Shown here one piece after another: positions 3,030 to 33,509 of a DNA stretch of 33,509 nucleotides. Under the pieces are notes generated by a model. That model saw nothing but the letters and a program-made list of their open reading frames with translations. It was not told the origin of the DNA and did no database searches. The position numbers were made by a program, and so were the translations under genes. The stretch comes from a virus: the IMG/VR virus record IMGVR_UViG_3300032304_002372, positions 1 to 33,509 of that record, one strand, 5' to 3'. Positions within the stretch are counted from its first letter, which is position 1. Each line of letters opens with the position of its first letter.

Positions 3030-3338
3030 ATGCGTAAACTTGTGCTTGCTCTGTTGTTGGTTTCTGGGTTGGTTCATGCCAAAGAATTTAGATCAGAAAA
3101 ACCCATAGTCTGTGATGGCATGGAACGAATAGTCAGATATTTTACCAGTGAGCCATATCTGGAATCACCGGTATGGATGGGTACTGATATTATAGATACT
3201 ACAATTCAATATACACTGATGTCTAACTATAAAACTGGTTCCTGGACCATGATCATGATCAAAGGCGACATTGGCTGTGTATTAGCTGCTGGTACACTGC
3301 ATACCATGATTCCCAATATCATAGGCAATCCCACCTAA
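3030..3338 (+). CDS. small secreted protein, 102 aa
   Basis: The start is placed at 3030 because AAAGGAG lies seven bases upstream and the product then opens with a classic signal peptide (MRKLVLALLLVSGLVHA, cleavage after AHA-type site). The longer in-frame start at 2841 would hide the signal peptide inside. The mature part is about 85 residues with two Cys (about 29 and 84), possibly a disulfide. No enzyme motif is visible. Its TAA overlaps the ATG of the DD-peptidase gene by one base (TAATG), so the two are coupled and share the late promoter at 3002. A periplasmic partner of the peptidase is plausible. Confidence 0.8.
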   Translation: MRKLVLALLLVSGLVHAKEFRSEKPIVCDGMERIVRYFTSEPYLESPVWMGTDIIDTTIQYTLMSNYKTGSWTMIMIKGDIGCVLAAGTLHTMIPNIIGNPT

Positions 3339-4063
3339 TGCGTTGGTTAGTTGGTCTTTGTCTGCTGTTGACTGTTAGTACAGCAGCTGCCAACCTTACT
3401 GCCCGCAGCTGGCTCATTGCCGACAGCGAACTGAACATCGAGGCTGGCGAAAACTTCTATGAAGTGCGCAGCATTGCCAGCCTGACTAAACTGCTGACTG
3501 TGATGGTGGCTCTGGACGATAATACTCGGCATCATAGTCTGGTTAAAATGTCCATGGTGCGCAGCAGTAATTCAGCTGCCCATCAACTATGTCAGCGTCA
3601 TAGCCAGGGGTATCAGGGCTGCATAGACGCCATGAATGCCAAGGCTCGCTGGTTGGGTGCTATCAACACCCGAGTCTATGAACCCACGGGGCTGGACCCT
3701 AGAAATCAGAGCACTGCAGTAGACATTGCCAAGATAATTCGCGGTGCCAGTCTATATCCTGAAATTGTTCAAGTAAGTCAGATTGATACGATCAAAATAA
3801 ACAAAAGAAGAATAGCGCACAATACCAATCCTCTGGTAACAAAATACAACACAGTAGTAAGCAAGACAGGTTGGACAGTTCGTGCCGGTGGTTGTTTAGC
3901 CATGATTGTCGATGATCGAATAATAGTTTTACTCGGGAGCAAGAACACTCACACCCGAGTAAAAGAAATGCAACAGCTCATAGAATCAGCTCCAGTTACT
4001 CAGTGGTCCACTGAGCCCTGGATGTCCACCTTCAAGCCGACTACGTTCCAGAACCTCGTCTAA
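3338..4063 (+). CDS. compact secreted serine DD-peptidase (S11 / PBP-like)
   Basis: Penicillin-binding-protein-type D-alanyl-D-alanine carboxypeptidase/endopeptidase acting on peptidoglycan in the periplasm. All three active-site motifs are present: SxxK as SLTK (48-51), SxN as SSN (76-78) and KTG (176-178). The first 18 residues form a signal peptide. At 241 aa it is shorter than host homologues such as PBP7 (about 310). Only 28 residues separate SxxK from SxN, against roughly 60 in typical S11 enzymes, so part of the helical subdomain is missing. It is cotranscribed with the secreted 102-aa protein from a late promoter, suggesting lysis, wall remodelling or superinfection functions. Its 3' end overlaps a convergent gene by 78 bp. 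Confidence 0.9.
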   Translation: MRWLVGLCLLLTVSTAAANLTARSWLIADSELNIEAGENFYEVRSIASLTKLLTVMVALDDNTRHHSLVKMSMVRSSNSAAHQLCQRHSQGYQGCIDAMNAKARWLGAINTRVYEPTGLDPRNQSTAVDIAKIIRGASLYPEIVQVSQIDTIKINKRRIAHNTNPLVTKYNTVVSKTGWTVRAGGCLAMIVDDRIIVLLGSKNTHTRVKEMQQLIESAPVTQWSTEPWMSTFKPTTFQNLV

Positions 4064-4555: not shown

Positions 4556-5164
4556 TTACCTAAATGGTGGACCACCCACCCACAATACTAGACTACGTCT
4601 GATGCCTCGGGTCACCGGAGTTACTCGATGCAACATCCAGCTTGGAAAGAACCAGGCACGACCACGTCGCTGTTCTACTGTCCTTGATTCTGAATTATCA
4701 ATCAATACCTGCAGCTCACCACCTTCAAATTCACTAGGATCACTCAACAACAAGGACATGCTTAATTTTCTGGGAACCACAGTTGGATCCTTACCATTGG
4801 CATCAGCATGCCAGCTGTAATGACCAGGATCATCGGGACTATATTCATAGGTGCCAAGTTGTATAGGTTCATAACAACCAGTAAGATCGTAATGAAAAAA
4901 TTGCGCATTAACTCGAGCCACAGTATTGGTTATGATGGCCCAGTAACGATCAGTATCAGCATCTCTCTGCAACCAACCAACCTTGCTGGATCTAATCTTG
5001 GTATCCAAGGCATGATTTGATGATAATCCAACAACACCATAATCAGCTGCAGCCCATTCAGGCCTGGCCAATAATCCCTGGATATCATCTTCACTTAAAA
5101 AGTCTTCCCACCAGGCTAGATTATCTGTGTCTGGTGAGTGTCTGGGTGGTATGTTTGCAATCAT
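4556..5164 (-). CDS. Fe(II)/2-oxoglutarate dioxygenase (PiuC/prolyl-hydroxylase type)
   Basis: Double-stranded beta-helix dioxygenase, 202 aa. The iron triad is clear: H119-A-D121 (YSWHADANGK) and H179 (WMLHRVTPV). The 2OG-binding Arg is R189 or R190 (GIRRSLVLW). The EFEGGELQVL segment between them is typical of the prolyl 4-hydroxylase superfamily. The substrate is unknown; protein side chains, nucleobases and small molecules are all known for the superfamily. It starts at an ATGA overlap with the next oxygenase upstream, so they are translated together. Confidence 0.9.
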   Translation of the reverse strand: MIANIPPRHSPDTDNLAWWEDFLSEDDIQGLLARPEWAAADYGVVGLSSNHALDTKIRSSKVGWLQRDADTDRYWAIITNTVARVNAQFFHYDLTGCYEPIQLGTYEYSPDDPGHYSWHADANGKDPTVVPRKLSMSLLLSDPSEFEGGELQVLIDNSESRTVEQRRGRAWFFPSWMLHRVTPVTRGIRRSLVLWVGGPPFR

Positions 5165-5610
5165 TGATGACTCACTGGTCTATGATCCCAGGGATTGATG
5201 GATACACTGAATCTAGTGCCTGACCATTCTTCTACTCCATGATAAATGCCTGGGGAAAATACTATCATTCTATTTGTTTGAGGTGTCACAGTTTCTGTGT
5301 TGGTTAAAAATCTGCCACCAGTTAAATTTTCTATGCACGGATAATAGACTATGCTACACAGAGGTGTCTGTAGTTCGCGCATACCTTCGTCTTTATCTAC
5401 ATGCCATCCTGGTCGTGTTGTCTGATGTGCCCAACATTCAATGCCCTGCATGCTGCTTAGATCAATGACTGCACGAGCTTTCTCCAAGAGAATAGATTGC
5501 CAGTACTCAGTTGTGGTCAACCAGTGTATTGCTAATTTATCTGCTGTAAAATATTCTATACAGGCTGCGCGATCCGCGGTGTCAAGAACATCGTCAAGTA
5601 TTAGTATCAT
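5161..5610 (-). CDS. Fe(II)/2-oxoglutarate dioxygenase-like protein, 149 aa
   Basis: Short oxygenase with the full triad: H70-V-D72 (GWHVDKDEG), H124 (GIYHGVEEW) and R133 in GTRFSVSINPW. GGRF at 98-101 fits the family's core strand. At 149 aa it is near the minimal beta-helix with little N-terminal extension. It lies in a run of similar genes, overlapping the upstream one by 17 bp and the downstream one by four. It is divergent from its neighbours, so the run is not a simple recent tandem duplication. Confidence 0.85.
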   Translation of the reverse strand: MILILDDVLDTADRAACIEYFTADKLAIHWLTTTEYWQSILLEKARAVIDLSSMQGIECWAHQTTRPGWHVDKDEGMRELQTPLCSIVYYPCIENLTGGRFLTNTETVTPQTNRMIVFSPGIYHGVEEWSGTRFSVSINPWDHRPVSHQ

Positions 5611-10727: not shown

Positions 10728-11876
10728 TTATTGGTTATTTATCAGGTATTTTATGCGTTGATCCAGTTCTATCCAATATGTTTCATTGGCTATCTGAGGT
10801 ACAACGAATGATAAACTGTTGGTGTAGAATTGATTGGTCAACAGTCCAGCCTGTTCCAGGATCCGTGGATCAATGTTTCCATGGAATACAAGTTCTCTGA
10901 TCAGACCCTGACCACGATGTTCTTTGATTGCAGTTCCTAGACTGCGAATCCAGGCATCGGTTCGGCCAACCAGGTCATTGAATCTGGTCTGATCAACCAG
11001 GTCCAGTACTTTATTGACCAGACTCAAGCCTGGTACCCAGGGCTGCCAGGTATGACCATGAACCCAACGACACTGCTGCAGAGCCGGAGCCAATCGTTGA
11101 TGGGCCAGGGCGCAACTCAGAGGAGCATGACCGCCAGTCAGTGATTTGCCCAGAGCCACAATGTCGGGTTCTATGCCCAGACTGGCATGTGTGCAGGTAG
11201 CCGCGGCTTTACCAAAGCCACCAGCCACATCGTCAATCATCAACAGTATGCCACGTTCAGTACAGAGTTGACGCAGATTCTGCCACCAACTCTGGCTCCA
11301 GGGTTTTAATCCGCGTAGCCAGGGTATGCTTTCCATAATGATGGTGCCTACACGTTGCCCTGCAGTTGAATCTAAAGTGGTCAGCAGATTGTTCCAGGCC
11401 TCAGCTTCAGAGCTGGCATCCACTACGACAACCTGAGTGTTCCAGGATCGTTCACGCCGCAGCGATTTAGATAACCAGGTACAGCCATGATAGTTCGGAG
11501 TAAAACTTAAAATTCTGGGACGGGGGTTGGCTTGCTGCTGTTGCCATTGCCAGGCTATTTCCAGACCAGCTTCAACAGCATCCGATCCTGATACAGTCCA
11601 GAGTATGCTGTGCATGCCTGTGAGAGCAGTTAGTCGTTGATTGACCTGATCCAGTATGTCGCAGGTTTCACCCTGACGTCCACGCACGAATGATACACCA
11701 GACATACCTGTGGCCAGAGCCTGATTTAAATCAGCATTGTTGTAGCCCCAGACATAGGCACTGTTACCTAACCAGAGATCCAGATATTGTCCTTGTGTGG
11801 TATTGACCCAGTAGCCCCGATTAGATACTACGGTACGTGCAATTTCTCCATGATTATGATCAGCTAGTTCTATCAT
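10728..11876 (-). CDS. PLP-dependent class III aminotransferase, 382 aa
   Basis: Fold-type I class III (omega/ornithine-type) aminotransferase. Motifs: SGSDAVEAGLEIA (96-108; usual SGSEAVEAALK), YHG (129-131) that stacks on the PLP ring, D215 in MIDDVAGGFGK (usual DEVQTGFGR) and Schiff-base lysine K244 in VALGKSLTGGH. It is somewhat shorter than the usual 400-450 aa. The amino donor and acceptor cannot be deduced. It is the last gene of the amidinotransferase/AdoMet decarboxylase cassette, four bases from the decarboxylase gene, so a polyamine, guanidino compound or amino-ketone substrate is a reasonable inference. Confidence 0.9.
   Translation of the reverse strand: MIELADHNHGEIARTVVSNRGYWVNTTQGQYLDLWLGNSAYVWGYNNADLNQALATGMSGVSFVRGRQGETCDILDQVNQRLTALTGMHSILWTVSGSDAVEAGLEIAWQWQQQQANPRPRILSFTPNYHGCTWLSKSLRRERSWNTQVVVVDASSEAEAWNNLLTTLDSTAGQRVGTIIMESIPWLRGLKPWSQSWWQNLRQLCTERGILLMIDDVAGGFGKAAATCTHASLGIEPDIVALGKSLTGGHAPLSCALAHQRLAPALQQCRWVHGHTWQPWVPGLSLVNKVLDLVDQTRFNDLVGRTDAWIRSLGTAIKEHRGQGLIRELVFHGNIDPRILEQAGLLTNQFYTNSLSFVVPQIANETYWIELDQRIKYLINNQ
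10736..10744 (-). promoter_or_regulatory. possible late promoter (TGATAAATA) before the fibre genes
   Basis: Minus-strand ATAAATA (10736-10742) lies 24 bp upstream of the GTG start of the S74 gene, at the 3' end of the aminotransferase gene. It is identical over nine bases to the element at 1625-1633. It fits late expression of structural genes but is one base short of the T4 octamer. Confidence 0.35.
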
Positions 11877-24484: not shown

Positions 24485-24961
24485 TTAGCGACTCCACCAG
24501 TCCTCCCACGGAAACACCACCCATTCGTGTTCTTTCTCAGGATCTATATACTGACCCACGAAATCGGCTTCTGCGTGGCTGCTATGCTTTTGCAATAATA
24601 CTGCATATCGAACCGTGGTCTGATCCAGCAGCAGCATACTTTTAGTGGCTTCTTTGATGCTGTTTACTGTCTTGCCGCTGTCATTGATGTCATCGACAAT
24701 CAAAACGGAACCACGACGCTTGGCTTCTTTGAAGGCCCATTCCAGACTAACATAGTCAACCACATCCATGTCTCTATGGCTGACCTGTACTGGGTAATGA
24801 GGGCAGTCATAGTAATGGCTAAGCATTACTCCTAACTGTAGTCCGCCACGATTGGGCGAAATGATGGTTGCAGGTTTAAAGTCATGTATGGCTGCTTCAC
24901 GTGTAATATTCAATAACCAGTTTGTAATATCAGACTGGGTTACATAATTATAGTGTATCAA
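24485..24961 (-). CDS. type I phosphoribosyltransferase, 158 aa, TTG start
   Basis: PRPP-binding motif VLIVDDINDSGKT (86-98) and the PPi-loop-like SPNRGGLQLG (35-44) identify a purine-type phosphoribosyltransferase (hypoxanthine/xanthine/guanine PRT class). The start is TTG at 24961: it has a near-perfect GGAGGAA five bases upstream, overlaps the previous stop as TTGA, and no in-frame ATG exists before residue 46. The substrate base is unknown. It is coupled to a glutaminase-like gene, so the two may act in one salvage or base-modifying step. Confidence 0.88.
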   Translation of the reverse strand: MIHYNYVTQSDITNWLLNITREAAIHDFKPATIISPNRGGLQLGVMLSHYYDCPHYPVQVSHRDMDVVDYVSLEWAFKEAKRRGSVLIVDDINDSGKTVNSIKEATKSMLLLDQTTVRYAVLLQKHSSHAEADFVGQYIDPEKEHEWVVFPWEDWWSR

Positions 24962-25596
24962 GTTTCCTCCATTATATGATCAACAAATTCCAAAAGTAAT
25001 TGATTGTGATATCCGTCATGCCAATGCTTCTTTAAATACTTGGGTCTGTCATACCAGTAGGGCCGACTCTCAGGATGACATCCAATTAGGCCTATTCTGT
25101 TCTGAACAATGGCCATGGGATAGTCTGTAGCATAACTGGCATACACATCCTGCTCTCCACCAACAAAGGTACAGCCGTCATAGAAGTACATGTTCATGGC
25201 CTCGCCTTGCCAGATTACTGGCATGGCTTTAGGATGCGGACGACGAGTGTCTGATCCTGGTTGAGTAATGTATTGTTCGACTCTGGTGTCTTTTAGTATG
25301 TCAAAATAGTATTCATCGGCCCAATAGGCACCCATGCAGATACCAATGTAGCGACCGCCACGTGCAATGTATTGTTGTATGCGTTCTTTGTGTACCTTGG
25401 CCACAGAATAAAATCGATCAGAATCGCCAATGCCACCAGGGAACAGAACAGCATCCACATCGTCGAAGAAGCTTTCTTCCATTTCATTCTTGCCAAACAA
25501 CTTGAACAGATACTTGGATTCCAGAGATTCAATCACACCATTGCTGCACTGAGCATCGCAACTGGGTTCATGCATGAATAGGGCTATACGTTTCAT
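24958..25596 (-). CDS. class I glutamine amidotransferase-like protein (BPL_N type)
   Basis: 212 aa. DJ-1/GATase-I-like fold with FPGGIGDSDRFYS (52-64), nucleophile elbow GRYIGICMGAYWAD with C87, and H174/E176 in GCHPESRPYWY. The whole protein resembles the biotin-protein-ligase N-terminal domain family found in marine phages and bacteria. It may supply ammonia to, or hydrolyse an amide of, the product of the coupled phosphoribosyltransferase. Substrate unproven. ATGA overlaps on both sides. Confidence 0.85.
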   Translation of the reverse strand: MKRIALFMHEPSCDAQCSNGVIESLESKYLFKLFGKNEMEESFFDDVDAVLFPGGIGDSDRFYSVAKVHKERIQQYIARGGRYIGICMGAYWADEYYFDILKDTRVEQYITQPGSDTRRPHPKAMPVIWQGEAMNMYFYDGCTFVGGEQDVYASYATDYPMAIVQNRIGLIGCHPESRPYWYDRPKYLKKHWHDGYHNQLLLEFVDHIMEET

Positions 25597-28771: not shown

Positions 28772-29278
28772 CTAGTCTAATAAATTTTCGTTCCATTCTC
28801 TGTGACCTTCTCTGAAGGCCATGTTTGACTGCGTTTCACGAACCTCAACTCTGTAACACCAGAGTCGGTCTGCCTCACCTGGTCCCCAGTAGTCGGGTAT
28901 ATAAACTCCATTGACATACTTGTAGAGCATGTCAGCCAAGCCTTCACAGCCTAGTCTAGGTAAGATGGTTAGCTTGGCCATCTTCTTTTCCTGCAACAAT
29001 CTATAGGTTGCCATTTCAGGGTCGTCTTCGGCTACCAATAAAGTATGATCAAACTGGTCTTCTAAAACAGATTTCAATTCTTTTAGACCACCGTAGTCGG
29101 CTGCCCAATTACGCACATCTAAGTCATTGGTACCAAAATAGAACTTCATTGAAAAGGCATAGCCATGAATTAGATTACAATGACTGTCGGCACGCCATTG
29201 ACGATAGGCAACTGGAAATGCGTTATGATATTCTTTGGTGCTGGTATACTTGTAGGCTACGGCTTTGGTTTCTGCCAT
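28772..29278 (-). CDS. QueD/6-pyruvoyl-tetrahydropterin synthase-like T-fold protein
   Basis: 168 aa. The pattern HNAFPVAYRQW, CNLIHGYAFSMKFYF (C34, H38), then GGLKELKSVLEDQFDHTLLV (D77-H78) and the C-terminal CYRVEVRET (E about 151) follows QueD/PTPS in order. Two of the three usual zinc histidines are altered: the A-H of the first motif is A-Y (24-25), and HGH is H-G-Y (38-40). C34, D77-H78 and the final Glu are kept. It may use other ligands, bind a different pterin or deazapurine, or be non-catalytic. It lies downstream of a DpdA-like gene. Promoter at 29311-29339. Confidence 0.8.
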   Translation of the reverse strand: MAETKAVAYKYTSTKEYHNAFPVAYRQWRADSHCNLIHGYAFSMKFYFGTNDLDVRNWAADYGGLKELKSVLEDQFDHTLLVAEDDPEMATYRLLQEKKMAKLTILPRLGCEGLADMLYKYVNGVYIPDYWGPGEADRLWCYRVEVRETQSNMAFREGHREWNENLLD

Positions 29279-29772
29279 GCGTGCTCCTCAAATTCGTTAT
29301 CAAAGTCTTTAGTATATTGTATATCAACTAATTTGTCAATGGCCTTTGGCGAATGCTTTTTAGTCTGGCGAACAAATTCAGCGTCAAATACACGCTTGCG
29401 CAATTCAGTACTTGAAAAACTATGACTACGTTTATTATAATGAATAGGTATGCCCAACTCTTTGCCAGTAAAATCAATATCACGATACTCTTCACCAACA
29501 AATCTAACATCGATATTCTGGCTCTGCAGTATGTCCATCAATTCTTTTTCTGTGGCATAGGGTATGATATTATCAACATATACACAGGCTTCTAATTGAA
29601 CCCAGCGTTCATATAAACTCTGTATGGGTTTATTCTTTGTAGGTCGATCTATGGTAGGGTCGGACTGAATGCCAACAATTAAATAGTCACAGTTCTTTTT
29701 TGCTTCTTCAAGCATACAGATATGACCTGCATGAAACAGGTCAAAGGTTGAGCAGGTAAAACCAGTGGTCAT
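29257..29772 (-). CDS. cytidylyltransferase-family nucleotidyltransferase, 171 aa
   Basis: Glycerol-3-phosphate cytidylyltransferase-like fold: TFDLFHAGHICMLEEAK with the H14-x-G-H17 signature, VGIQSDPTIDRPTK, and the SSTELRKR C-terminal motif (usual ISTT/SSTxIxxR). It links CTP (or ATP) to a phosphorylated small molecule such as glycerol phosphate or a sugar phosphate. Coupled by ATGA to the glycosyltransferase, so a nucleotide-activated donor for that enzyme is a sensible inference. Length is normal (TagD about 130 aa) with a longer C-terminal tail. Confidence 0.87.
   Translation of the reverse strand: MTTGFTCSTFDLFHAGHICMLEEAKKNCDYLIVGIQSDPTIDRPTKNKPIQSLYERWVQLEACVYVDNIIPYATEKELMDILQSQNIDVRFVGEEYRDIDFTGKELGIPIHYNKRSHSFSSTELRKRVFDAEFVRQTKKHSPKAIDKLVDIQYTKDFDNEFEEHAWQKPKP
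29311..29339 (-). promoter_or_regulatory. sigma70-like promoter for the QueD-like/gp47/gp46 group
   Basis: TTGACA (29334-29339), 17 bp, TATACT (29311-29316), within the 3' part of the cytidylyltransferase gene, 33 bp before the QueD-like ATG. Would drive the QueD-like gene, DUF465, gp47 and gp46. Confidence 0.65.
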
Positions 29773-30827
29773 TTTTCCCCCAAAATCTTATCAAACATTA
29801 TATTGGCATTCATGTAATGATCAATCAGTATCTTCTGCTGCTTCTGCAAGGCAGGCAAGAATTTAGTTCTATTACCAACTCGCTCATTGATAAAATCAAT
29901 CAACAGATCTTTGTGCGCCAAATAATTATTATAGCTGCTGGTCCATTCGCTAGGATATAAAAACTCATCCATGTACATTTCGGCATAGCTAGCTCGATTA
30001 GGAACAATGGGAATAGCACCTGTCAGGGTACCTTCCATGACACTGATGCCTAGATTTTCATGCAGGGCACAACTAAAGATAGCAGCTGCCTTGCCCATCT
30101 CCTGATAGTAGGCTGCCTTGCTTAGATTCTGCTTCTGAGTAATCTGCATGGTAAAATAGGTATTTAAATCTTCGGCAATTTCTGGTTGCTTGTCTGAATT
30201 ATAACGATGTGGCCACATTACTACAGGATGCTTTTCCTGCGTATTATAGGACAGCAGATTCTCAATAACTGGATCATGTGGTTGACCACTTCTATAAGCC
30301 AAGGATCTATCAACACCTAAATTTTCAATGAACATATCTTTATGGAAGTTAGTAGCAAAGTAATTATAATCACAGGCATAGTACCAGGCACGCTCCTGAT
30401 TGCTGCTCCAGGCCTTGCCCATCTTCATGCCTAGTATGTCGGTTGGATCATAGGCGCCTGCATGCCAGATGCCATGTATCTCCACAGGAATGGCCAAGAG
30501 CTCACTCATATATTTGATGCTGGTTATAACTGGATTCCAGGCATCAGTGATTAAAAATTTATCGCCAGGCTGAATTTCTCCAGCAGCAAATTTACGAGCT
30601 ATGGTTTCTGTCTGACTGGCTTTATAGATGTTGGTTACTGCAAAGTCCAGGAAGGCGCCAGCAGTAGTACCAGCATTGGTCTGAATACCATCAATGGTAA
30701 CAATCTGCCATTCTTCCTTGGCTTTGTCTAGGACCTGATTGGCAAACAACTTGGGGATATTAGTATACCACTGCTTGGTATAACGCTGATCTATAGGTTC
30801 AATTGGTACTATATAAAGTGTTCTCAT
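29769..30827 (-). CDS. GT-B glycosyltransferase, 352 aa
   Basis: C-terminal half carries a GT4-like donor site: HENLGISVMEGTLTGAIPIV (E-x7-E form, about 256-275), then PNRASYAEMY. The N-terminal Rossmann-like half opens LYIVPIEPIDQRYTKQWYTN, with WHAGAYDPTD in the middle. Acceptor unknown: candidates are modified phage DNA (as with T4 glucosyltransferases) or a cell-surface or virion glycan. Overlaps the T-fold gene upstream and the cytidylyltransferase downstream by four bases each. Confidence 0.82.
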   Translation of the reverse strand: MRTLYIVPIEPIDQRYTKQWYTNIPKLFANQVLDKAKEEWQIVTIDGIQTNAGTTAGAFLDFAVTNIYKASQTETIARKFAAGEIQPGDKFLITDAWNPVITSIKYMSELLAIPVEIHGIWHAGAYDPTDILGMKMGKAWSSNQERAWYYACDYNYFATNFHKDMFIENLGVDRSLAYRSGQPHDPVIENLLSYNTQEKHPVVMWPHRYNSDKQPEIAEDLNTYFTMQITQKQNLSKAAYYQEMGKAAAIFSCALHENLGISVMEGTLTGAIPIVPNRASYAEMYMDEFLYPSEWTSSYNNYLAHKDLLIDFINERVGNRTKFLPALQKQQKILIDHYMNANIMFDKILGEK

Positions 30828-31198
30828 ATTGTTGGATGCGCCCAGTAATGTAGAATTGCTCCATTTTCACCATCTTCAGATACTTCAACTTCCATGTCAC
30901 GACCAGGATACTTGTCCTTGATTGTTGCAATCAAAGACTCGGCCAACATTTCACAGCTCTGATAATCTAGCTCGAGAGTGGAATTAGAATACAGATTTTC
31001 GAGCCATCGTTTAAATTGGATGAACTCAATGTCCCTGTCATTATGCTGCACGGAAATGCGCACGCTGAAATGGAAGATATGGCGATGAGGATGAGCAAGA
31101 AACGAGACATCGGCTAGTTTAGGATCTGTGGCTGCTGCAGGATATTTATGTATTCCTTCCTTTTGAAAGGTAACTTTAATCCATCTACGTATCATCAT
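30824..31198 (-). CDS. second T-fold-like (PTPS/QueD-like) small protein, 124 aa
   Basis: I call this family tentatively. EGIHKYPAA, FLAHPHRHIFHFSVRISV (H36, H38, H40), then LELDYQSCEMLAESLI (C82) and VEVSEDGENGA follow the layout of 6-pyruvoyl-tetrahydropterin synthases: a His-rich first motif, a Cys/Glu helix and a final VxVxE strand. Its His-rich segment complements the His-poor QueD-like protein at 28772. The start uses the ATG that overlaps the DpdA-like stop (ATGA). It could instead be an unrelated beta-barrel. Confidence 0.5.
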   Translation of the reverse strand: MMIRRWIKVTFQKEGIHKYPAAATDPKLADVSFLAHPHRHIFHFSVRISVQHNDRDIEFIQFKRWLENLYSNSTLELDYQSCEMLAESLIATIKDKYPGRDMEVEVSEDGENGAILHYWAHPTI

Positions 31199-32445
31199 GC
31201 GAATAACTCCTCTAGGCTAGATTGTTCGGTATATACCTGCACAGGCTCTGAATCCATGTAAGGGCCTACATGAGTAACCCAGTGTTCAAAGTCTGCAGCA
31301 GTCTTTACTGAGTATAAGGCATCAAAGGCATTCCTGTCAAGCCCTTTTGCAAACTTCATGACCTCTTTACGGCAGCGGCTTACTCGGTCAACCTGCTCAA
31401 TAAAGTTCTTGATTGATGAGCTGACATAGGCAACATACAACTGCAGACTTGGATCGATTGTGCCAAAATTCTTTTCATAGGTACGACTGCTTTGATTGAG
31501 AATATTGTATAGATCATCTACCGTATATTCAATGAATGGAAAATTCTTTTTCATATTTTCCAAGACAATTCTGTAGCTATCATCATAGGCACGAGTAAAT
31601 GTAAAGGCATAATCGTTCATGTAATAACGACCCTGAGTCACACCTGACGTATGAGTAGTACTATCATAGCTCATATGCACACCATCATACATGCCATTCT
31701 GAATAAAGATCATCTGTGGCAGCATACGATACACGCTGCCAACTCCCAGCAGATGCAGATTTTTATGCTCCAATTCAATGGGTAACTGAGTAAAGTAAAA
31801 TGCCCGCTTGATGTCTTCCAGACTACCTTTGCCCAGAGCAGCTGCTCCCATGGCTATACCACCAATGTGCTTGACATAATCAGCTGGCATTTCTAATTGT
31901 ACATACTCCACCCACTTCATATAACTGTCATAGTCATTGCCCTGAGCAATAAGCATGGGCTTGGAAGTAGTACCTTTTTCCAGAAAATATTCTATTTGCC
32001 TTTTTAAATTCTTGCCAGTTTCGCGAGCACAATGCTCAAGCTGAGATGCATCAAAGCGACGGTTACTAAGATCCAATCTTTCTGATCTACCATTGTCCAG
32101 AGTACGCACAGGAATAACATCGAAGCACATGGCAATGTCGCTGTTCTGAGCCTGATTGGTATAGACTTCTTCCTTGAGTTCTTCTGTGATAGTACGGCCC
32201 AGAGTAATCATCTGCAGGCCGCCTGAGTCGGCATGGATGTTGTGAACCAGATTACGATAATGGGAGCCGCACCAACGGCCAGGTCTTTTCTCAGTATAAG
32301 CGTTATATAGTAAACTTATCTTATGGTTGTGCTGATCATTAAGACTTCCAAAGGTGCGGCTAAACCAGTCCAGGTTCTGTGGCAGTAAACTTTCTTCATA
32401 CATTAACTTGAAGTAGCTGGTACCACTGGCGACATATTCAAACAT
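31195..32445 (-). CDS. tRNA-guanine transglycosylase family protein, DpdA-like
   Basis: 416 aa. TGT signatures in order: HADSGGLQMITLG (D73-S74; TGT has DSGGFQ), AMCFDVIP (D109), HIGGIAMGA, HLLGVGS (231-237; TGT has YLMGVG) and YDGVHMSYDSTTH (D261, the position of the nucleophilic Asp). The C-terminal CxCxxC...H zinc site of tRNA enzymes is not seen. Phage members of this family (DpdA) exchange guanine in DNA for a 7-deazaguanine. DNA versus tRNA cannot be settled from sequence, but phage origin, missing zinc motif and the neighbouring T-fold genes favour DpdA. Confidence 0.82.
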   Translation of the reverse strand: MFEYVASGTSYFKLMYEESLLPQNLDWFSRTFGSLNDQHNHKISLLYNAYTEKRPGRWCGSHYRNLVHNIHADSGGLQMITLGRTITEELKEEVYTNQAQNSDIAMCFDVIPVRTLDNGRSERLDLSNRRFDASQLEHCARETGKNLKRQIEYFLEKGTTSKPMLIAQGNDYDSYMKWVEYVQLEMPADYVKHIGGIAMGAAALGKGSLEDIKRAFYFTQLPIELEHKNLHLLGVGSVYRMLPQMIFIQNGMYDGVHMSYDSTTHTSGVTQGRYYMNDYAFTFTRAYDDSYRIVLENMKKNFPFIEYTVDDLYNILNQSSRTYEKNFGTIDPSLQLYVAYVSSSIKNFIEQVDRVSRCRKEVMKFAKGLDRNAFDALYSVKTAADFEHWVTHVGPYMDSEPVQVYTEQSSLEELFA

Positions 32446-32446
32446 A

Positions 32447-32950
32447 TTAACTTCCCAGTATTTTAATTAGATGCTTGGTCTGTGTCATTGCATCATCGAG
32501 AGCATTATGATATGTTCCCTCACGTTTGTCAATAGGTACATTGACTATATTCTTCATGGTACGATAACAGCGATCATCCCAGGGTAACCAGGGACGTTTT
32601 CTATCTAAAGCAAAGTAGGCATTCTCTAAGATGACATTATCGAAGCCTGCGCCATTGCCCCAGGTAGGTAAACTTTTACTGCCATACCAGGCTTCAAAGT
32701 TGGTCAGGGCTTCTTCTAGATCCAGATTATCCTTGAGCAAGGCATCGCGTGCTTCCTTGCTTTGCTTGCTCCACCACAGCAGAGTTTCTTTATCGAAATG
32801 TAGACCCGCAGCCTTACAGGATTTAGGATCAATGGTACAGTAAAAGGTATCTACGATTTGATCGTCTTCCCATTTTACTGCACCTATGCTGGCAATGGCC
32901 GCATTGGCCTTGGTGCTGTAGGTTTCGAGGTCTAACATTACATTAATCAC
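32447..32950 (-). CDS. DEDDh 3'-5' exonuclease (DexA/RNase T-like), GTG start
   Basis: 167 aa. Exonuclease motifs: VMLDLETYS (D7, E9), WGNGAGFDNVILENAY (D of ExoII) and YHNALDDAMTQ (His and Asp of ExoIII). Start set at GTG 32950, which has AAGGAA seven bases upstream; the ATG at 32980 lies inside the previous gene with no ribosome-binding site. T4 DexA is 227 aa; this is a shorter relative. It degrades single-stranded DNA or trims 3' ends. The stop is one base from the DpdA-like ATG. Confidence 0.9.
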   Translation of the reverse strand: MINVMLDLETYSTKANAAIASIGAVKWEDDQIVDTFYCTIDPKSCKAAGLHFDKETLLWWSKQSKEARDALLKDNLDLEEALTNFEAWYGSKSLPTWGNGAGFDNVILENAYFALDRKRPWLPWDDRCYRTMKNIVNVPIDKREGTYHNALDDAMTQTKHLIKILGS

Positions 32951-33164
32951 GTGGCGGTTCCTTGTATTTGATTGCGCCATGTTGAAGCATAGTACTTAGC
33001 AACATCTCTGTACTTGATCCATAGCGTTTGGCATAGCTACGAAATGCCTTGGGAATACCATACTGGGCAGCCAGCTTCTTGTCCCAGCGTTTTTCTTTTT
33101 TACGCTTGGCATTACCCATTAAGGTTGCTTCGGTATCCAGCTGATTCTTTACAATATCGTTCAT
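32943..33164 (-). CDS. small basic protein, 73 aa
   Basis: Unrecognised. The middle is very basic (GNAKRKKEKRWDKKLAAQYG) and could bind nucleic acid. The remainder is helical with LLSTMLQHGAIKYKEPPRD at the end. Overlaps the MazG stop by four bases and the exonuclease start by eight. No catalytic motif. Confidence 0.75.
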   Translation of the reverse strand: MNDIVKNQLDTEATLMGNAKRKKEKRWDKKLAAQYGIPKAFRSYAKRYGSSTEMLLSTMLQHGAIKYKEPPRD

Positions 33165-33451
33165 GACAGTTCCTTGTTAAATAAATGAGTAGTCCATTTT
33201 TCCAGTTTAATGCGTTTAGCACTCTTGGCTTCTTGCACAAGTTTGATATCAATGAGTTCAAATTCTTCTAATAGATCAATCATGCATAGCAGATCACCAA
33301 TTTCTTCTTCCAATCTCTGACGATTGGTTCGATCAGTATATGCTTCGTCTAAACCAAAACGAAATATTTTGCTGATAACCTGCGATACTTCGCCACATTC
33401 TTCTTGCATGATAAGCAGAGTTTCTGTTTCCTTGGGTGTAATAGGTCTCAT
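33161..33451 (-). CDS. mazG: MazG-like NTP pyrophosphohydrolase, 96 aa
   Basis: All-alpha NTP-PPase. The metal site motif is present: QEECGEVSQVISKIFRFG (E-E-x-x-E) followed by RLEEEIGDLLCMIDLL (E-E-x-x-D). The size fits the single-domain phage MazG. Phage MazG proteins have been proposed to lower host ppGpp or clean up NTPs; the real substrate here is unknown. Its ATG lies one base after the stop of the upstream partial gene. Confidence 0.9.
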   Translation of the reverse strand: MRPITPKETETLLIMQEECGEVSQVISKIFRFGLDEAYTDRTNRQRLEEEIGDLLCMIDLLEEFELIDIKLVQEAKSAKRIKLEKWTTHLFNKELS

Positions 33452-33452
33452 G

Positions 33453-33509
33453 TTATTTCATCTTCGCCACGATTGAGAAAAATTCTTGCTTGAGTGCTGC
33501 GTCTTCGCG
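33453..33509 (-). CDS. 3' end of a gene that continues outside the window
   Basis: The frame is open from the window edge to TAA at 33455-33453 and encodes the last 18 residues, ending EFFSIVAKMK. The frame and overlap with the MazG gene fit the operon. Too short to identify. Confidence 0.7.
   Translation of the reverse strand, partial: REDAALKQEFFSIVAKMK

Follow-up and report, generated by a model that had tools for sequence, protein, structure and literature searches.

The 33,509-nucleotide viral DNA analyzed here, IMG/VR record IMGVR_UViG_3300032304_002372 (the window, below), carries a minus-strand operon that probably equips its phage with glycosylated 7-deazaguanine in its DNA. In the scheme we favor, a small T-fold protein that we call T2 would replace QueC, a DpdA2-type transglycosylase would insert the modified base, and a glycosyltransferase (GT) would glycosylate it. 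We see the module as a variation on 7-deazaguanine modification of DNA as already described, in which a sugar would be added. The original prediction, of a 7-deazaguanine base that might be further glycosylated, is supported by comparison with other phages, given the kinship of the transglycosylase to DpdA2 and the presence of 7-deazaguanine genes beside GT in 80 of the 80 best GT loci. Gene identities, folds, gene order, co-conservation and the exclusion of QueC are all computational results.

The window comes from a T4-like phage with DNA polymerase, clamp-loader, and gp46- and gp47-like genes (presumptive names for two open reading frames [ORFs]). The record is incomplete, the contig end cutting the operon, which reads on the minus strand as the C terminus of folE, MazG, a 73-amino-acid protein, a DEDD exonuclease, DpdA2, T2, GT, a nucleotidyltransferase (CT), a QueD homologue, a 66-amino-acid protein, gp47 and gp46. 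The genes on which the proposal turns are as follows.

33453..33509, minus strand: folE (GTP cyclohydrolase I), last 18 codons plus stop, truncated by the contig end; REDAALKQEFFSIVAKMK-stop in the window versus KSLKKEFYDIVAKMK-stop in relatives
31195..32445, minus strand: predicted DpdA2-type DNA-guanine transglycosylase, 416 amino acids; TIGR00449 at 2.8e-6, motifs, similarity to nt-1 DpdA2
30824..31198, minus strand: T2, QueD-like T-fold protein, 124 amino acids; phrog_17812 at 1.3e-38, AlphaFold model
29769..30827, minus strand: GT, predicted GT-B glycosyltransferase, GT4-like, 352 amino acids; model fold, E-x7-E
29257..29772, minus strand: CT, HIGH-superfamily nucleotidyltransferase, 171 amino acids; PF01467 at 8.5e-18
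28772..29278, minus strand: QueD homologue with altered zinc ligands, 168 amino acids; PF01242 at 6.4e-14, phrog_2389 at 1.4e-34

The five ORFs from DpdA2 to QueD were all recovered, on the minus strand, where the original prediction had placed them. The 4-bp overlaps said to couple them hold at DpdA/T2, T2/GT and GT/CT but not at CT/QueD, where the overlap is 22 bp. FolE, QueE and QueC had been reported as outside the window, with the precursor left to the host or to genes elsewhere; this stands for QueE and QueC but not for FolE, whose C terminus lies at the window edge, so that the precursor is not wholly left to the host. It is QueC alone, not the whole precursor pathway, that is missing from this phage line, and QueE and FolE lie upstream in 15/15 loci retrieved with the window DpdA2 protein, none of which contains QueC. 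Because the order DpdA-T2-GT-(CT)-QueD is repeated in dozens of contigs, the locus stands above chance.

The transglycosylase had been described as a protein of the tRNA-guanine transglycosylase (TGT) family without the tRNA-type zinc motif, and both parts of that description are borne out. The ORF matches TIGR00449, the superfamily model, at 2.8e-6 (under the model cut-off) and falls short of the Tgt family cut-offs (14.5 versus 26.3 bits for Pfam TGT, 26.9 versus 306.75 for TIGR00430); a DpdA2 profile aligns with E. coli Tgt in hhalign at an E value of 1.8e-6 and a probability of 79.6. The CxCxxC zinc motif is missing from the window protein and from all 76 IMG/VR DpdA2 proteins of at least 380 amino acids (from 80 loci) and is present in the control, E. 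coli Tgt. All 76 contain DSGGLQ and DS[TS][TS]H, the second motif being DSTTH in the window, and D73 (of the DSGG motif) and D261 are unchanged in 7/7 aligned DpdA2 proteins; the catalytic roles of these aspartates, that of the DSGG motif and the nucleophile, are assigned by analogy with Tgt. A Tgt acting on tRNA was set aside as the lead reading, given the missing zinc motif and the scores below the family cut-offs. The window protein is 39.7% identical to the DpdA2 of Vibrio phage nt-1 over 66% of the query (8e-41), and when 50,697 phage records were searched by tblastn, 70 proved to encode a relative, nt-1 included. In the available text of a Nature Communications paper from 2019 (PMC6884629), the nt-1 protein is defined as DpdA2, and nt-1 DNA bears mainly dPreQ0, plus dG+ and dADG. 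On this similarity, the window transglycosylase is a DpdA2, kin to that of nt-1, and is predicted to insert its base into DNA. None of the profiles for DpdA2, T2 and GT found a strong sequence match in the PDB.

The distribution of QueC carries much of the argument for T2 and GT. IMG/VR was scanned with a DpdA2 profile (383 related stretches), a GT alignment (at least 481) and T2 (at least 587), and the best 80 loci were analyzed in each case. Thirty-nine of the DpdA2 loci reach 15 kb; 38 of these have T2 and GT without QueC, and the one other, L146, has QueC and neither T2 nor GT; in this set, clustering found QueE in 39/39 and QueD in 36/39. The 41 shorter loci contain both T2 and GT (29 loci), T2 alone (2) or neither (10), and QueC in none. 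The named phages divide the same way: QueC, without T2 or GT, is found in the DpdA2 loci of nt-1, pf16 and Moby, and those of BUCT-ZZ01, X1 and ACP17 have T2 and GT. (The QueC-type locus of Stenotrophomonas phage Moby also includes an inositol-3-phosphate synthase gene, L020:4508-5758.) Two loci from scans with QueC-type DpdA2 queries, L259 and L260, combine DpdA2 and GT with no detectable T2 and no QueC, and a 340-amino-acid protein stands between DpdA2 and GT in T2's stead (L259:9710-10732, L260:6782-7804). In a rapidly built phylogeny of 67 DpdA2 sequences, L146 falls within the T2+GT clade, and the locus label needs three changes on the tree (midpoint root, with several long branches meeting). 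Locus content and tree together make QueC and T2+GT look like alternatives for the same step that have been exchanged more than once.

Whole records were also checked for QueC (PF06508), 24 in all: 4 of QueC type, 18 with T2 and GT, and 2 with T2 but no GT. All four QueC-type records (nt-1, pf16, Moby and that of L146) match QueC. There was no match in 14 of the 18 T2+GT records, including the nearest relative of the window (167 kb), ACP17, BUCT-ZZ01, Phosso and PA5oct, nor over the whole of the two records with T2 alone, phiST and RHph_I1_18.

T2 belongs to PHROG 17812, in which no function is assigned, and it had been predicted from the sequence to be a T-fold-like protein. Its AlphaFold model (predicted local distance difference test [pLDDT] score, 90.6) agrees, the closest structure being E. 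coli QueD (4ntk: Z 12.4, root-mean-square deviation 2.4, 110 residues aligned), followed by QueF-L (5k0p, Z 9.6), dihydroneopterin aldolase and FolE; the matches to QueF-L and to QueF (4f8b, Z 8.0) concern the fold, as distinct from the thioimide cysteine. Residues H17, H38, H40, C82 and E83 are unchanged in 33/33 aligned sequences. We take the histidines to occupy the zinc positions of QueD and the glutamate to be the residue that holds the pterin ring, and T2 looks suited to binding zinc and a ligand resembling guanine. T2 has no cysteine where E. coli QueD has C27, C82 (beside E83) being its sole invariant cysteine, and a T2 profile set against the single E. coli QueD sequence gave a probability of 0.7 (no profile link), although the residues align sensibly. 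That T2 might be a second QueD was rejected because T2 occurs alongside a QueD homologue (36/39 long loci) and lacks the catalytic cysteine position. T2 is a distinct family, not a spare QueD, and in gene content it replaces QueC.

GT had been called a GT-B glycosyltransferase, and the predicted structure bears this out, even though no Pfam, PHROG or NCBIfam model matched above its cut-off. The model (pLDDT 93.4) has an unambiguous GT-B fold, with Z scores of 27.2 to sucrose-phosphate synthase, 26.2 to BshA and 26.0 to MshA, and of 27.2 to 21.5 over the 50 structure matches listed. An E-x7-E pair (E257/E265 in the window) recurs in the family, E265 in 39/39 sequences, with the first position being E in 26 of them and D in the other 13; we assume this to be the motif of GT4-like retaining enzymes, and the model points to an enzyme of that kind. 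No T4 DNA glucosyltransferase is among the 50 listed matches, a direct comparison with T4 alpha-GT and beta-GT not having been made. Each of the best 80 GT loci holds at least one of FolE, QueE, QueD, T2 and a TGT-like gene; T2 is present in 71 and QueC in none of the 80. Where 1.5 kb or more of sequence upstream of GT is available (71 loci), T2 lies within 3 kb of GT in 68. Judged by this company, GT appears to be dedicated to the 7-deazaguanine pathway. Hydroxymethylcytosine was also considered as its target. A thymidylate-synthase-type hydroxymethylase (PF00303) is missing from 16 of the 18 T2+GT records, which makes hydroxymethylcytosine or hydroxymethyluracil of that origin an unlikely target; Phosso and PA5oct have such an enzyme, and in those two phages hydroxymethylcytosine may still be what GT acts on.

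The T2-GT pair is not confined to DpdA2. Among the best 80 T2 loci, 76 have GT, 73 have a TGT-like gene and none has QueC, and the transglycosylase is DpdA2 in 3, a small type in 2 and, in 68, what we call the DpdB type (a working label for a TGT-like family, unrelated to the bacterial ATPase DpdB). DpdB-type proteins are about 515 to 540 amino acids long and contain DSGG[FY]Q as well as a conserved FDxASP (e.g., L045:5655-7202 and, in PA5oct, L023:6367-7989); D294 (PA5oct numbering), in the presumed nucleophile motif, is kept in 95% or more of 64 sequences. No Pfam or PHROG model matches them, and profile comparison linked them to DpdA2 (hhalign, E = 2e-7) but linked neither them nor the small TGT-like proteins to the single E. 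coli Tgt sequence. The DpdB-type gene adjoins GT in PA5oct, Paride (listed host, Pseudomonas aeruginosa PAO1) and their relatives and lies 170 kb away in Phosso. Because DpdB, DpdA2 and small types all accompany T2, T2-GT is a unit that moves with transglycosylases of different kinds. In phiST, Ahp1_CNU-2021, D479 and MA9V-3, T2 is followed by a protein of 259 to 290 amino acids with TGT-like motifs, with a kinase-like gene alongside; it is possible that this small protein exchanges the base on a nucleotide instead of on DNA. The small TGT-like proteins lie at the following positions.

L104:8807-9586
L107:8426-9298
L108:8701-9558
L109:8785-9579

The presence of T2 without GT beside these proteins fits a division of labor in which T2 makes the base and GT is an optional decoration.

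The remaining module genes bear on the precursor and the sugar. The QueD homologue, predicted to be QueD/6-pyruvoyl-tetrahydropterin synthase (PTPS)-like, was confirmed as such (PF01242, as listed above). Its C34, D77, H78, E112 and E148 align with C27, D70, H71, E86 and E110 of E. coli QueD, which include the catalytic cysteine, the Asp-His pair and the pterin glutamate, and Y25 and Y40 replace H16 and H33, two of the three zinc histidines. The same loss (to F/Y and Y) is seen in 65 of 73 QueD homologues of T2 loci, with the Cys, the Asp-His and both Glu kept; the QueD of QueC-type locus L146 retains all zinc histidines, and that of pf16 retains two. T2 presents the reverse pattern, with histidines retained and the cysteine lost. 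It is conceivable that the QueD homologue and T2 form a shared or mixed oligomer. CT comes closest to the NCBIfam model g3p_cytidyltrns (2.2e-18, under cut-off), and relatives have further genes inserted at this place, namely a fusion of nucleotidyltransferase and mannose-6-phosphate isomerase cupin (L001), free cupins (L142) or GDP-mannose 4,6-dehydratase (L003 and L117, PF16363 at 3.4e-135; 7/39 long DpdA2 loci). Among the best 80 T2 loci, 26 have an epimerase and 13 a DegT aminotransferase. Since sugar-nucleotide enzymes sit inside the operon, GT would use an activated sugar made for it, and the sugar would differ among phages.

In assembling these genes into a pathway, we infer DNA as the target, the order of the steps, the T2 reaction, the sugar and its attachment point, and a protective role. 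FolE, QueD and QueE would convert GTP to 7-carboxy-7-deazaguanine (CDG), a pathway given as established in the available text of PMC13329287. T2 would then act on CDG at the step that QueC takes in preQ0-type phages. Its likeliest reaction would be removal of the carboxylate at the zinc site, leaving a 7-deazaguanine open to substitution at position 7, and a zinc site facing the CDG carboxylate would suit a decarboxylase. DpdA2 would exchange the T2 product for guanine in DNA after replication, and GT would transfer a sugar to the inserted base from a nucleoside diphosphate sugar. The nucleotidyltransferase would provide this donor, as would GDP-mannose dehydratase, an epimerase or a cupin isomerase in some relatives. 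The outcome would be DNA shielded from host nucleases. If T2 does decarboxylate, the outward position most plausibly used is C7, which would make GT a C-glycosyltransferase; otherwise, the acceptor could be the carboxylate or a derivative of it. A decarboxylase of CDG (DpdL) and a DpdA3 are reportedly described in a paper from 2023 in Nucleic Acids Research. The presence of T2 in phages that lack QueC, phiST for one, is in keeping with such a decarboxylase, and we suspect that T2 may be DpdL.

These ideas can be extended to a widespread class of phages with C-glycosylated purine DNA, in which T2 would decarboxylate CDG, a transglycosylase of any of the families would insert the product, GT would join a sugar to C7 by a carbon-carbon bond, and the sugar would be varied through swaps of sugar-nucleotide genes. 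The outcome would be a sugar-decorated purine genome, a counterpart to the glucosylated hydroxymethylcytosine of T4. This extension is speculative, and we consider it doubtful.

Several observations weigh against a glycosylated base. The chemistry of the module is deduced by computation. If the carboxylate is removed, GT would have to use a ring carbon as its acceptor, which is uncommon; the window also contains two overlapping 2-oxoglutarate-Fe(II) oxygenase-like genes (4556-5164 and 5161-5610), and such oxygenases could in principle make another, hydroxylated acceptor. The loci are not independent samples, some being near-copies. Records G006, G009 and G013 have partial PF06508 matches over the cut-off (about 50 to 60 profile positions near the C terminus), and X1 has one under it. 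We read these as probably other proteins sharing the zinc region, but they leave some room for QueC-like activity in T2+GT phages, and hosts may supply QueC. Finally, T2 without GT in Cellulophaga phage phiST, MA9V-3, Ahp1_CNU-2021 and D479 and GT without T2 in L259 and L260 mean that the pair is not obligate.

The phages with T2 but no GT beside a small TGT-like protein are also what one would expect if the DNA carried an unglycosylated 7-deazaguanine (dCDG or dDG, or else dPreQ0 or dPreQ1 where the host provides QueC/QueF). T2 would then complete the base, and GT would act elsewhere, say, on host surface glycans or a phage protein. This fits the mainly dPreQ0-bearing DNA of the DpdA2 phage nt-1 (PMC6884629, available text) and the attribution of phage glycosyltransferase clusters to capsular or O-antigen polysaccharide in the available text of jumbo-phage work (PMC7824862). 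Yet the GT family was not found outside 7-deazaguanine gene loci among the best 80, the GT and T2 genes of the window share 4 bp, and a surface-glycan enzyme would not be expected to track the transglycosylase across DpdA types. We therefore hold a bare base to be unlikely.

Two further products deserve mention. FolE, two PTPS-fold proteins and a glycosyltransferase could instead yield a glycosylated pterin such as tetrahydrobiopterin glucoside, and the GT fold does match the tetrahydrobiopterin glucosyltransferase PsBGluT (9v0l, Z 22.1). PsBGluT is, however, one among many GT4 matches and not the best, and QueE, the enzyme of the committing step towards CDG, occurs in 39/39 long DpdA2 loci, as does a TGT-like protein (also in 73 of the best 80 T2 loci), so a pterin product seems very improbable. 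Sugar-decorated queuosine occurs in animal tRNA, and the superfamily kinship with Tgt would allow the TGT-like protein to act on tRNA, the operon then making a phage-specific glycosylated queuosine-like base. With the zinc motif missing, scores under the Pfam TGT and NCBIfam Tgt cut-offs, and the closest family with evidence, nt-1 DpdA2, accompanying modified virion DNA (PMC6884629, available text), we give this tRNA product hardly any credence.

Glycosylated 7-deazaguanine in DNA, the reading we prefer, can be set beside several known systems. The nt-1 DpdA2 system shares with the window its transglycosylase subfamily, adjacent FolE/QueD-type genes and a large tailed phage; nt-1 differs in having QueC and, in the text available, ends in dPreQ0, whereas the window line carries T2 and GT, and its nearest relative, of 167 kb, has no QueC. 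PA5oct has T2 and GT homologues beside QueE and a TGT-like protein, but its transglycosylase is of the DpdB type (about 540 amino acids), not DpdA2; the available text of PMC7824862 names a deazaguanine synthesis and incorporation system in this phage without linking a glycosyltransferase to it. T2 shares with the QueD/PTPS family the T-fold, three histidines at zinc positions and the purine/pterin glutamate and departs from it in lacking the catalytic cysteine position and in coexisting with a QueD homologue (36/39 long loci). Phage DNA glycosylation is known for hydroxymethylated pyrimidines. As in T4-type glucosylation of hydroxymethylcytosine, a phage glycosyltransferase would decorate DNA once the modified base is in; unlike there, the base would be a purine analogue brought in by base exchange, and 16/18 T2+GT records have no thymidylate-synthase-type hydroxymethylase. 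A literature search covering open-licence papers turned up no account of phage DNA that bears a glycosylated 7-deazaguanine.

Other genes of the operon and the window complete the inventory.

33161..33451, minus strand: MazG-like pyrophosphohydrolase, 96 amino acids; PF03819 at 8.7e-6, phrog_4856 at 3.9e-23
32943..33164, minus strand: small protein, 73 amino acids, no assigned function; ORF kept in nearest relatives
32447..32980, minus strand: DEDD 3'-5' exonuclease, 177 amino acids; PF16473 at 1.5e-43
24485..24961, minus strand: phosphoribosyltransferase, 158 amino acids, possible module member; PF00156 at 1.4e-9, phrog_8995 at 7.9e-18

The DEDD exonuclease is present in 28 of the 39 long DpdA2 loci. 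The phosphoribosyltransferase gene overlaps that of a glutamine-amidotransferase-like protein (24958-25596) by 4 bp and has a homologue in 50 of the best 80 GT loci; its product may salvage guanine freed by base exchange. A Vut_1 (YhhQ-like) transporter gene lies in the module at L050:12898-13521, and members of its cluster occur in 9/80 T2 loci. The window also has a class-III aminotransferase gene (10728-11876, PF00202 at 7.2e-40) adjoining tail-fibre-type genes and, on the plus strand, a gene for a D-alanyl-D-alanine carboxypeptidase family protein (3338-4063, PF00768 at 2e-25).

The module is common, with at least 481 GT-related and at least 587 T2-related stretches in IMG/VR, and some of the phages that carry it can be grown in culture, PA5oct, Paride and ACP17 among them, so that the prediction is directly testable. 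If it is true, a dedicated 7-deazaguanine glycosyltransferase would extend phage DNA glycosylation to a purine inserted by base exchange. It would also explain why many QueC-less phages retain FolE, QueD and QueE, and it would open a way to study how phages evade restriction and Cas nucleases.

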